Position numbers and translations under genes: made by a program
Notes under the pieces: generated by a model
What the model saw: the letters and a program-made list of their open reading frames with translations, nothing else
Told to the model about the DNA's origin: nothing
Databases searched by the model: none
Shown: positions 58,389 through 64,000 of the stretch, in pieces
Layout of the letters: each line of letters opens with the position of its first letter
Position numbering within the stretch: position 1 is the first letter of the stretch
Assembly: GCF_038002825.1 (NCBI RefSeq)
Contig: NZ_JBBODF010000001.1
Location: 5,580,001-5,644,000 of the forward strand
From: Paenibacillus sp. FSL H8-0048
Lineage (GTDB): Bacteria; Bacillota; Bacilli; Paenibacillales; Paenibacillaceae
Direction: 5' to 3'
DNA length: 64,000 nucleotides

Positions 58389-58566
58389 GACTTAACTCCG
58401 CAGAGTGGCGCCGGAGAGACGAATAGTTTAACCCTCAGTTGACAGAATTCTCCCATCTTCTTTAAGTGGGGGATGAATGGAAACGGTCTAATCTACATGG
58501 ATTCTAACCGCCTGAGATGCTATAATTAAAGTGTTCAGTCGTATCTTGGGAAGGTCGGTGAAGTTA

Positions 58567-58968
58567 ATGAAATTAGACTCAAATAACCATTCAGTGTTCT
58601 CCCTTCACTTTCACCTTATTCTAGTCATCAAGTATCGTAGGAAAGTCATTACAGATCCCATATCCGAACGTCTGAAAGAGATATTTGCATCCATTCAGCC
58701 TACTTACAATGTGACTTTGCAGGAATGGAATCATGACAGGGATCACGTTCATATTTTAATGAAAACTCATCCTAATACCGACATTTCTAAATTTCTCAAC
58801 GCTTATAAGAGTGCATCATCTAGGCTGATCAAGAAGGAGTTTCCTACCCTCCGAACATCACTTTGGAAAGAGGCTTTTTGGTCACGCTCCTATTGCTTGC
58901 TTACAACGGGTGAAGCGCCAATAGACGTCATTCAAAAATACATCGAAACCCAAGGGGGGAAAGGGTGA
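58567..58968 (+). CDS. tnpA: IS200/IS605 transposase TnpA (Y1 HUH)
   Basis: Single-strand DNA transposase of 133 aa. HUH metal motif in HDRDHVHILM, nucleophilic Tyr at about residue 125 in QKYIETQGGKG, and N-terminal SLHFHLILVIKYRRKVI. Complete, with no frameshift. ATG 58567 chosen over the longer frame from 58531. tnpB follows after 6 bp. Confidence 0.92.
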   Translation: MKLDSNNHSVFSLHFHLILVIKYRRKVITDPISERLKEIFASIQPTYNVTLQEWNHDRDHVHILMKTHPNTDISKFLNAYKSASSRLIKKEFPTLRTSLWKEAFWSRSYCLLTTGEAPIDVIQKYIETQGGKG

Positions 58969-58974
58969 TCACCA

Positions 58975-60048
58975 TTGCTGAAAGCCTACAAATACCGTAT
59001 CTATCCAAGCCATGGGCAACAACACTACTTCGCTAAAGTGTTCGGATGCGTTCGCTTCATCTACAACAGAATGCTTGCAGATAAAATGGAACATTACAAG
59101 CAAACGGAAACGATGCTGAGGAATACACCCGCACAATACAAAAAGGAATTCGACTGGCTGAAAGAAGTCGATAGTCTTGCCTTAGCGAATACACAACTGA
59201 ATTTAGACAAGGCTTATACGAATTTTTTTCGGGATCAGAAAACGGGATTTCCTAAATTCAAGAGCAAGAAGACGAATCATCATAGCTTCACAACGAATAA
59301 CCAAAATGGAGCAGTGGCCATAGAGGATGGATATCTCAAGATTCCAAAGCTAAAAACGGGCATCAAAATCAAGCTACACCGCCCATTCGGGGGGCTGATC
59401 AAATCATGCACGATTTCAAAAACACCAACGGGAAAGTATTATGCTTCCGTATTGGTTGAAACGGATATCGTCCAGTTGCCCAACATGCATACGAAGATTG
59501 GCGTTGATCTTGGGCTGAAAGACTTTGCGATAACTTCAAATGGCGAAATCCTATCCAATCCTAAATACTTGCGTACGTCTGAAAAGCGGTTAGCGAAGCT
59601 GCAAAAGGATGTATCACGGAAGAAGAAGGGAAGCCATAACCGTCATAAGGCTAGGCTGAAAGTGGCCAAGCACCATGAAAAAATAGCGAATCAGCGTAAA
59701 GACTTCTTGCATAAAACGTCTGCCCAAATGATAAACGAAAACCAAGTTATCGTGATGGAAGACTTGCGTGTAAAGAATATGCTGAAGAATCACAAACTTG
59801 CAAAAGCGATTAGCGAGGTATCTTGGAGTATGTTCCGTTCGATGCTTGAATATAAGGCTCAATGGTATGGCAGAGAGCTTATTATTGCCCCTAAGCACTA
59901 TGCAAGCAGTCAGCTTTGCTCCTGTTGCGGTTATAAGAACGCAGAGGTGAAGAATCTCGCCTTGCGAGAGTGGACTTGTCCAGAATGTAACGTGCATCAT
60001 GATCGGGATGTAAATGCTGCTCAAAACCTACTGAAACTAGCCATGTGA
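58975..60048 (+). CDS. tnpB: TnpB RNA-guided nuclease of IS605 type
   Basis: RNA-guided endonuclease, ancestor-type to Cas12. 357 aa. RuvC-like catalytic residues appear intact: Asp178 in GVDLGLKD, Glu262 in VMEDL, and Asp343/Asp345 in [11 protein letters not shown], with a zinc-ribbon CSCCGYKN and CPEC between. N-terminal [13 protein letters not shown] and the helical lobe [12 protein letters not shown] are family-like. In characterised elements the guide RNA overlaps the tnpB end and the right element end; here that would be about 59950-60110. The start is TTG. Confidence 0.9.
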
Positions 60049-62101: not shown

Positions 62102-62250
62102 AGGTGCATAAGTGCTCCTCAATTGAGCGTGATAGCTGTGTTTGGTGGAATGAGGAGCATAAGTGCTCTTCATTTGAGCGTGTGAGCTACTTTTGGTTGA
62201 ATCAGGTGTATAAGTGCCCTTCATTCGCGCGTTTGAGTTAACTTAGGGGG
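62102..62250 (+). repeat. three tandem 51-bp units with mini-hairpins
   Basis: Units begin at 62102, 62153 and 62204 (period exactly 51 bp). Each starts with an 18-bp hairpin of the form AGGTGCATAAGTGCTCCT, then TCA-TTGAGCG and a TTTGGTTGAAT-like tail; the third unit is diverged. The hairpin equals the single copy at 5542. The region lies between the methyltransferase and the O-antigen-ligase-like gene. Confidence 0.8.
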
Positions 62251-62322
62251 ACCAGTTGCCTCTTCTGTTTTCCAGTATATATGGGCAGACTGTTAAGCAT
62301 CATGAGTAATAGGAGATTTAGG

Positions 62323-64000
62323 ATGCGCGTGAAAGGGTATGAACGGCAAAGTGAATGGTTGGTTACTTTGGTTTGCGGGTTGGCGTTAATAGCAGCGGGG
62401 ACAGCGGCCTGTGTGCTGAGAGGTTTCTTTTTCACCGGGGAGATGTATTTGTTCTTGACGGTGTGGTTTGGCTTGTGCGGGGTCTTGCTGGGATTGGTAA
62501 TTATCTATATGGCGGCTGGCAGAGGGGCTGGGCTGAGGCTGCACAAGGTAGATCCGAAGTTGTCTGGTGGTTACTTAAATAGGACGCAAATTGAGGAACA
62601 GTTTGAACGCAGAGAGAATACCCGGGAGTTGGCTGGCAGTATAGGTAGAGTAAGGGGGCTGGCTGTCTGGGGGTTACTCAGCGGTTGTGTGCTACTATGT
62701 CTCTTGTATGCTATTCAATCACTGGGCAGTCCCGTATCCGCGCAAGGAACGCTAAATGAAATGCTGCGCTCAGGCTTCTACACCAGCTTTATGATATTTG
62801 CTTTGTTGGCGGCACGAACCCGTCGGGGAGGGGCCCTTCTTGCGGCAGTGTGGCATCTGCTTGGAATTGCTATTAGTTTGTCAGCCCTTTTGGCGGTCTG
62901 CGGAGGTCTGCCGGTTCCTTATGCGGTGGCTTATACCCAATCGCCCGGGGTCAGTGCTACTGGTGCCAGGCTGGCCGGACTGCTTCAGTATCCGAATGCC
63001 TTTGGTGCGGTGATGGCGGTGTATCTGCTGGAACGGCTGTTTGCTGCCGCTTATAGCTTCTGGCCTGGAGAGTCTCAGGAAGGTGCGGGCAGCAGTGCGG
63101 TGCGTGCGAGTGTCAGCGGAGCGGGTGAGGTAGGGGCAGAAGGTGCGGGGGCGGGAAATATTGCTGAGCGTACGGATGTTAGCAGAGCGGGTGAGGTAGG
63201 TACAGAAGGTGTGAACGCGGGCAATAATTGGGTATGCACGGGTGTCGGCGGAGTAGATGAGTCAGGTGCAGAAACTGCGGGTGCGGGCAATAATTCGGTA
63301 CGTTCAGGTGTCGGCGGAGTAGATGAGTCAGGTGCAGGAGATGCAGGCATCATTGCAAAGCGGACCAGAGCCTGGTCCGCTTCGCAATGGCTAAGAGCGG
63401 CGCGCCTGCTGCCGCTCTTCCCGTACGCCGCCGCGCTGCTGCTCAGCGAGTCGCGCGGCGCATGGCTGGCTGCGGCTGCCGCCGGTGCCGCAGCCCTTCT
63501 CCTGAAGCGGCAACTGTTCGTGCCGCTTCTAATCACCGGCGCCGCCCCCGTTGCCGCGGCGGCGCTGCTCTACCGCCAGCTGGCCCGCTCCGGGCTGGCG
63601 GCAGAGCCCCTGCCCGGCCTGCTGCTGCTGGCCGGGCTCTGGGCCGGCGCGTGGCTGGCCGGCCTATGGCTGCACCGCCGCAGCTGCCATGCGGCGGGCG
63701 GGGTCCGCGCCGCCGTGCTGGCGCTGGCGGCGGCGGGCTGGACGGCGGCGGCCAGCGCCGTCCTGCTGCTGGTACGCGCGCGGATCACCGGGCCGTCACC
63801 GACGGCCGCCGCGCGCGGGCTGTTCTACCGCGATGCCTGGAAGCTCGCGGCAGAAGCGCCCTGGCTGGGGCGCGGGGGCGAGACCTGGCGGCATACGTAC
63901 CTTGCCGCCCAGTCCCGCCCCTACGTAGGCAGCCAGGTGCACAGCGGTTACCTCGACATCCTGCTGAACCTCGGGATGGCGGGTCTGGCTGCGGTCCTCC
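62323..64000 (+). CDS. O-antigen-ligase-like membrane protein, 3' end outside window
   Basis: Open from ATG 62323 (AGGAG 7 nt upstream) to the window end, so at least 559 residues. Hydrophobic helices alternate with loops; QYPNAFGAVMAVYLLE, SESRGAWLAAAAAG, LGRGGETW and SQVHSGYLDILLNLGM are the pattern of O-antigen ligase/Wzy-type polymerases, which join sugar repeat units at the outer face of the membrane. Residues about 255-345 are an unusual soluble insert of 22-residue repeats. The first third is Thr/Leu-coded with moderate GC; after about 63390 GC rises sharply. ATG 62302 is an in-frame alternative. Confidence 0.72.
   Translation, partial: MRVKGYERQSEWLVTLVCGLALIAAGTAACVLRGFFFTGEMYLFLTVWFGLCGVLLGLVIIYMAAGRGAGLRLHKVDPKLSGGYLNRTQIEEQFERRENTRELAGSIGRVRGLAVWGLLSGCVLLCLLYAIQSLGSPVSAQGTLNEMLRSGFYTSFMIFALLAARTRRGGALLAAVWHLLGIAISLSALLAVCGGLPVPYAVAYTQSPGVSATGARLAGLLQYPNAFGAVMAVYLLERLFAAAYSFWPGESQEGAGSSAVRASVSGAGEVGAEGAGAGNIAERTDVSRAGEVGTEGVNAGNNWVCTGVGGVDESGAETAGAGNNSVRSGVGGVDESGAGDAGIIAKRTRAWSASQWLRAARLLPLFPYAAALLLSESRGAWLAAAAAGAAALLLKRQLFVPLLITGAAPVAAAALLYRQLARSGLAAEPLPGLLLLAGLWAGAWLAGLWLHRRSCHAAGGVRAAVLALAAAGWTAAASAVLLLVRARITGPSPTAAARGLFYRDAWKLAAEAPWLGRGGETWRHTYLAAQSRPYVGSQVHSGYLDILLNLGMAGLAAVL
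63097..63350 (+). repeat. in-frame 66-bp tandem repeat inside O-antigen-ligase-like gene
   Basis: About four units of 22 codons (Gly/Ala/Glu/Val-rich, e.g. SGAGEVGAEGAGAGN and GVGGVDESGAETAGAGN). GGTGTCGGCGGAGTAGATGA recurs at 63241 and 63307, exactly 66 bp apart; earlier units are diverged. Confidence 0.8.
63351..63389. repeat. 39-bp hairpin inside the coding region
   Basis: CATTGC-A-AAGCGGACCA and TGGTCCGCTT-C-GCAATG are inverted arms (one mismatch) around GAGCC. It directly follows the tandem repeat and marks the shift to very GC-rich sequence. Confidence 0.7.

Follow-up and report, generated by a model that had tools for sequence, protein, structure and literature searches.

The 22-residue repeat described here lies in the window, a 64,000-nt stretch of the genome of Paenibacillus sp. 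FSL H8-0048 (G000), and is probably one of many lineage-specific, in-frame minisatellites that were born repeatedly in a permissive cytoplasmic linker that joins segments TM6 and TM7 in a membrane protein of the Wzy_C (O-antigen ligase) family. The array comprises four head-to-tail copies of a 66-nt unit at positions 63082-63345 of the plus strand (spacing 66/66/66, a single family in the repeat search): unit 1 (63082-63147, GAGSSAVRASVSGAGEVGAEGA), unit 2 (63148-63213, GAGNIAERTDVSRAGEVGTEGV), unit 3 (63214-63279, NAGNNWVCTGVGGVDESGAETA) and unit 4 (63280-63345, GAGNNSVRSGVGGVDESGAGDA). Each unit corresponds to 22 codons in frame with the ORF starting at 62281, as an earlier note on this DNA had claimed for about four units, and 4 x 66 bp arranged head-to-tail beyond chance constitute a minisatellite (units of at least 10 bp). 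The lag-66 score of 96, against a null of ~11, was matched by 0/100 and then 0/200 codon shuffles. Scores of at least 96 were reached by 9 of the 362 long ORFs, the window ORF included, in 464 kb (the window together with 20 segments of 20 kb each); such arrays are therefore rare, though not unique, in this genome. Judging from their sequences, several of the other high-scoring ORFs resemble collagen-like or repeat-domain proteins or frames across intergenic arrays.

Tandem Repeats Finder, run at a score of 40, did not report the 66-bp array because the units have diverged. Units 3 and 4 are identical at 54/66 bases (82%), units 1 and 2 at 51/66 and the remaining pairs at 41-48/66; the best 66-base stretch at lag 66 reaches 56/66. 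The earlier note had described the last two units as almost identical and recently duplicated. Given the 54/66 match and the presence of the same four units, in unchanged order, in the nearest relative, G098 (90% DNA identity), this was an overstatement. The shared unit order indicates that the duplication is not very recent, and it took place before the nearest sister species branched off.

At the 3' end of the array, beginning 5 bp past it, is an 18-bp inverted repeat with a 3-nt loop (63351-63389, no strand assigned). Its arms differ, with matching changes, among the long forms of G000, G098 and G097; the inverted repeat is shorter in G042, G096 and G059, and the long loop-2 hairpin is limited to some lineages. 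We considered and rejected the hairpin as a dispersed element: a search of its own genome returned only the hairpin itself, folded on its own arms. A separate, intergenic tandem array with a period of 51 bp (62102-62237) lies immediately upstream of the Wzy_C gene, and arrays with a period of 51 or 102 bp were seen at five more sampled sites in the genome (L133, L140, L143, L144 and L145). Some of these share a VIGFPIT-like frame and possibly form a dispersed 51-bp minisatellite family.

The Wzy_C gene occupies 62281-64000 of the window on the plus strand and encodes 868 aa, running beyond the window to ~G000:C1:5644887. The earlier assignment to an O-antigen-ligase-like membrane enzyme was borne out by PF04932 (Wzy_C), which scored 42.9 bits for the part within the window and 40.7 bits for the whole protein against a cut-off of 31.7. 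By contrast, the window protein scored only 18.2 bits against the cut-off of 188.1 for TIGR03097 (exosortase-A-associated O-glycosylation ligase). A Pfam search of the window protein yielded no TPR family at E 0.1, and phmmer against the PDB returned zero matches at E 10. For the P. monticola orthologue, AlphaFold2 predicted paired C-terminal helices, mostly with pLDDT 74-89, for which the top Foldseek matches were mostly TPR proteins (E 3e-4 to 1e-3); overall pLDDT values of 42 (window part) and 51 (P. monticola orthologue) make the models usable for the C-terminal helices only. These models suggest a TPR-like C-terminus, and we predict an enzyme of the Wzy_C-TPR type, a glycan ligase or one resembling O-oligosaccharyltransferases. 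The gene was matched in 61 of 61 sampled genomes of the genus, and a broader search with the window DNA stretch as query matched 64/100 genus genomes. Within the window, no glycan genes were recognised adjoining the Wzy_C gene; a 145-aa ORF and its 357-aa neighbour (58531-60048) presumably encode a transposase of the IS200/IS605 type and a TnpB-like protein, which they resemble by eye.

To place the array in the protein, we reasoned the topology by counting hydrophobic segments from the positively charged N-terminus and the conserved catalytic loop; the AlphaFold2 models were discarded as a source of topology, their overall pLDDT being too poor. Loop 2, which carries the array, sits between LLERLFA and LLPLFPYAAALLL-SESRGAW, and is predicted to face the cytoplasm, as are loops 1 and 3. 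Thus, where the earlier note had allowed for either an extracytoplasmic or a cytoplasmic loop, this reasoning favours the latter and speaks against the former. The TM6-TM7 linker is probably also disordered. Loop 1 (62521-62655, plus strand) varies in length among relatives, some of which carry insertions or arrays there. Insertions of at least 15 aa were found in 27 (loop 1, main site), 40 (loop 2) and 69 (loop 3) of 76 rows, one duplicate included, and significant arrays in 5/20 long versions of loop 1 and 14/53 of loop 3, for example the HSATAPLQPPR-type repeats in loop 3 of G007. The standard deviation of length is 30, 44 and 34 aa for predicted inner loops 1-3, at most 1.6 aa for every outer loop and 1.4 aa for the TPR part; the value of 11.6 aa for inner loop L10-11 is due to a few insertions. 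The arrays are restricted to the three predicted inner loops and the predicted outer loops are kept free of them; hence the term 'permissive' applies to these three loops only.

For the comparison of loop 2 across relatives, 80 records plus two more yielded 76 full-length sequences, from which P. phytohabitans L036 was dropped as a presumed duplicate of G077, its contig being of equal length (it is still counted in the 76-row totals). The remaining set consists of P. sacheonensis and 74 genomes of the genus. Loop 2 was bounded by YPNxFGA and SESRGA, with the ends trimmed before a cut-off of at least 30 aa was applied. The loop is about 41-57 aa long in many orthologues, with others extending to as much as 210 aa, and its trimmed form reaches at least 30 aa in 37 of the 75 full-length orthologues. 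Among these 37 long versions, 26 contain a significant tandem array, the score of which was reached by 0/200 codon shuffles; the other 11 show no array at this threshold. The best lags range from 24 to 144 bp and every one is a multiple of 3. Flanks of equal length on both sides of loop 2 gave no array signal in the first genome set. Beyond the genus, loop 2 is 38-54 aa long in all 17 orthologues that could be parsed among 19 loci examined.

The arrays recur, and their units are unrelated between lineages. At least 14 array-bearing unit families unrelated in sequence were distinguished, read by hand at a linkage score of at least 27; links at this level among the 41 loops compared gave 8 multi-genome groups and 9 singles. 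Under single-linkage clustering, the chaining of groups through weak links (20-26) reduces the loops to 11 components. By parsimony, the array state changed at least 14 times on the core-column tree, a quick tree with 39/72 branches starred. In G061 and G026, the repeat unit was copied from the neighbouring membrane segment, a clear case of local duplication. Within the 66-bp family, compared in one genome per species, the six sister species have 4 (G000), 4 (G098), 5 (G097), 2 (G042, by threshold; a third, degenerate unit is arguable), 3 (G096) and 6 (G059) units, and a two-unit (132-bp) higher-order repeat occurs inside the 66-bp array of G097 (L120). The gain or loss of units anticipated by the earlier note is thus seen between close relatives: across species, the number is not fixed, nor is the insert missing from every relative.

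The site after the YPN motif is a trouble spot for sequencing or assembly in relatives. The draft contigs of G019, G045, G050, G071, G072 and G078 end in the Wzy_C gene just past this motif, and in G030 the motif is followed shortly by Ns.

Substitution patterns point to weak constraint on the loop. Across ten sister pairs, which are partly non-independent, loop-2 dN/dS was 1.02, 1.02, 0.82, 0.94, 0.46, 1.12, 0.83, 0.70, 0.83 and 0.88 (median ~0.85), values that within repeats depend on the alignment, compared with 0.24-0.46 in the remainder of the gene; loop 2 had the greater value in 10/10 pairs. With dN/dS near 1 in most pairs and with the relatives' repeats unrelated, the loop sequence appears largely unconstrained. 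It is not strictly neutral, given the dN/dS of 0.46 in the G077/G084 pair and a G-over-C bias of the coding strand. This bias was found in 20/20 genomes for loop 1 and in 37/37 for loop 2, and the third-position excess of G over C is above expectation in 19/20 and 31/37, respectively. The G000 loop contains 20 C-ending codons against 35.6 expected from the codon usage of 241 control genes. Strand skew is mixed in loop 3, being positive in 17/53. In strand composition, some loop-3 arrays are the opposite of loops 1 and 2: C-rich arrays on the coding strand, with units of ~10 and 20 residues, were observed in loop 3 at L003:4178-4276 and in the orthologues of G007, G058 and G001.

A separate surprise is found 3' of the loop, where a coding island spanning TM7 to the catalytic loop (63391-64000, plus strand, extending slightly past the window to ~G000:C1:5644011) is GC3-rich, structure-prone and constrained at synonymous sites, suggesting selection on silent positions within a membrane-enzyme gene. 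Median GC3 over 75 genomes is 0.57-0.65 before the loop, 0.90, 0.89, 0.88 and 0.83 along the island, and then 0.72 and 0.63; in the window genome, the 130-codon GC3 maximum of the island (0.92) is a level attained in 1 of 241 control genes. When 21 sister pairs are pooled, fourfold sites diverge by 0.08, 0.06, 0.07 and 0.11 in the island, about threefold less than in the upstream region or the TPR part (0.19-0.23). Five windows of the island folded with more stability than their synonymous shuffles, at z-scores (means of up to 12 genomes) of -2.2, -3.5, -1.3, -1.6 and -2.1, as against ~0 for two windows upstream; 150 random control windows averaged -0.2 (s.d. 1.2). The GC3 step was also found in genus g7 and in g18, where it is clear in 2/3 genomes, and was absent from g10, g13 and g15; being common to g7 and g18, the step is older than the repeats.

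To characterize the folding, we used an alignment (A3) of 70 genomes. G009 (N) and P. sacheonensis were left out, as were G010, G021 and G041, which gives 70 of 73 references. A 49-pair structure, derived from this same alignment plus one hairpin drawn by eye, has 94.9% of its cells paired across the 70 genomes, against 91.7% in shuffled and 30-65% in slid versions. Its doubly changed cells number 91 against 25.5 +/- 3.8 in shuffles, although such pair-change counts are inflated by relatedness and a GC-rich codon set favours palindromes. The structure comprises seven hairpins on the plus strand. Hairpin 1, over SESRGA (63430-63459), is nearly invariant in the 70 genomes; hairpin 2 (63470-63493) has a third-position pair that is GC in 38, UA in 20 and CG in 6 of 70; hairpin 3 is at 63506-63530; hairpin 4 (63540-63564) has two such pairs (GC 45, CG 13 and GU 9 of 70; CG 51, GC 7, UG 5 and UA 3 of 70); hairpin 5, over LYRQLAR.GLA.E (63567-63607), has 13 pairs with 84% of cells paired; hairpin 6 (63612-63637) comprises helices 6 and 7; and hairpin 7 (63645-63661, helix 8) has one pair that is GC in 64 and CG in 5 of 70. 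As a comparison of RNA structure with DNA palindrome, the 49 pairs contain 124 G-U versus 54 A-C cells, one pair supplying 57 of the former and another 32 of the latter. Rfam 15 gave no match at the gathering score and two sub-threshold matches (E 0.42 and 0.87). An overlapping gene was rejected: frame +2 of the island is open in 61/70 sequences, with 0.17 stops per sequence versus 0.42 in synonymous shuffles, yet its starts and stops are scattered.

The succession of array, hairpin and island raises the question of whether the arrays result from their surroundings. The GC3-rich island and the 18-bp hairpin may stall replication or transcription and thereby generate tandem duplications beside them, a possible reading that we would not put first. 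It fits with the direct adjacency of the three elements, with the greater folding stability of island windows relative to synonymous shuffles, where upstream windows stay at ~0, with the rise in median GC3 from 0.57-0.65 before the loop to 0.83-0.90 after it, with the co-varying arms of the long hairpin in G000, G098 and G097 and with the G-richness of the coding strand in loop 1 (20/20) and loop 2 (37/37). However, the island also occurs next to a short loop 2 in many genus genomes and in genus g7 (GC3 0.76-0.83 after versus 0.60-0.72 before the loop), the expansions of loop 1 lie far upstream of it, and only some lineages have the long hairpin. Stalling of this kind would be compatible with the permissive linker, as the source of a high birth rate. 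A more far-reaching and rather doubtful version is that the seven small hairpins, with their compensatory changes at synonymous sites, form a selected in-frame array (~600 bp) that both fixes synonymous codons throughout the genus and, through replication or transcription stalling, turns the adjoining permissive loops into minisatellite nurseries; if so, a single structural island would freeze and destabilise neighbouring parts of one gene.

An effect on the enzyme is where the earlier note had looked, proposing that the repeats may tune surface polysaccharide synthesis. Loop length or charge might adjust partner binding or chain transfer, with repeat number as a contingency dial by analogy to TolA. 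Repeats have indeed been retained recurrently in many lineages, P. silagei (G059) has 6 units where its relative G096 has 3, and tolA repeat number is described as giving graded stress phenotypes, with contraction at 6.9e-5 (PMC3477136). The near-unity dN/dS in most of the ten pairs and the unrelated repeats of relatives nevertheless leave the tuning claim unsupported, and we regard it as improbable, considering also that the families share no common motif, that loop net charge spans -16 to +22 and that the loop is short in 17/17 parsed orthologues beyond the genus. Antigenic or phage-receptor variation of a surface-exposed loop is very improbable: Wzy_C enzymes work on the external side of the membrane (general knowledge; also described in PMC12004945), whereas segment counting from the N-terminus and the catalytic loop places loop 2 inside, and several relatives have strongly basic loops (+17 to +22). 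That the array reflects misassembly or a decaying gene can practically be dismissed. Although several draft contigs of relatives terminate in the gene, the window genome consists of 2 contigs and is 99.99% complete, single-contig relatives give the same picture, and the frame is open throughout the full-length set.

We therefore favour recurrent repeat birth in the permissive inner linker. A local segment would be duplicated by slippage or by recombination between short direct repeats; selection would then purge frameshifts, stops and hydrophobic or membrane-like insertions, retaining frame and hydrophilicity, and would otherwise be nearly blind to the loop sequence, so that units could expand, contract, diverge and be replaced, presumably with weak or no effect on the enzyme. 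Intragenic minisatellites are usually studied at a single locus. Here, ~75 orthologues offer many independent births at one site, where position, frame and hydrophilicity are inherited and the unit is not. With these parts separable, the question of neutral versus adaptive coding repeats becomes directly testable. Among titles and abstracts of the open-access literature, the scope of our search (subscription papers lay outside it), we recognised nothing on repeats in this protein and found neither the adjoining synonymous-constrained island nor a case in which repeats arise again and again, independently, in the same few loops of a single enzyme throughout a genus.

In-frame minisatellites in envelope genes are already known from the accounts in PMC3477136, PMC2884548 and PMC2639597. 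Those of E. coli tolA and of Legionella pneumophila genes are likewise in frame and variable in copy number, as far as described in PMC3477136 and PMC2639597; unlike them, the repeats reported here have units unrelated between lineages and births recurring in three loops. Intragenic microdiversity loci, the in-frame variable segments that PMC2884548 describes as enriched in membrane-protein genes, come in that account from strain comparison across whole genomes, whereas here a single gene is a repeated hotspot throughout a genus. As for the enzyme, the Wzy_C domain is common to WsfB, PglL, WaaL and the present protein, which scores above the PF04932 cut-off. WsfB of Paenibacillus alvei is described as a predicted S-layer O-oligosaccharyltransferase, and WsfB and PglL as having a C-terminal TPR (PMC2943079); the likeness of the Wzy_C domain followed by a TPR-like C-terminus is one of described architecture rather than of alignment. 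The parts of PMC2943079 that deal with WsfB and PglL do not mention a repeat loop such as the window protein has.
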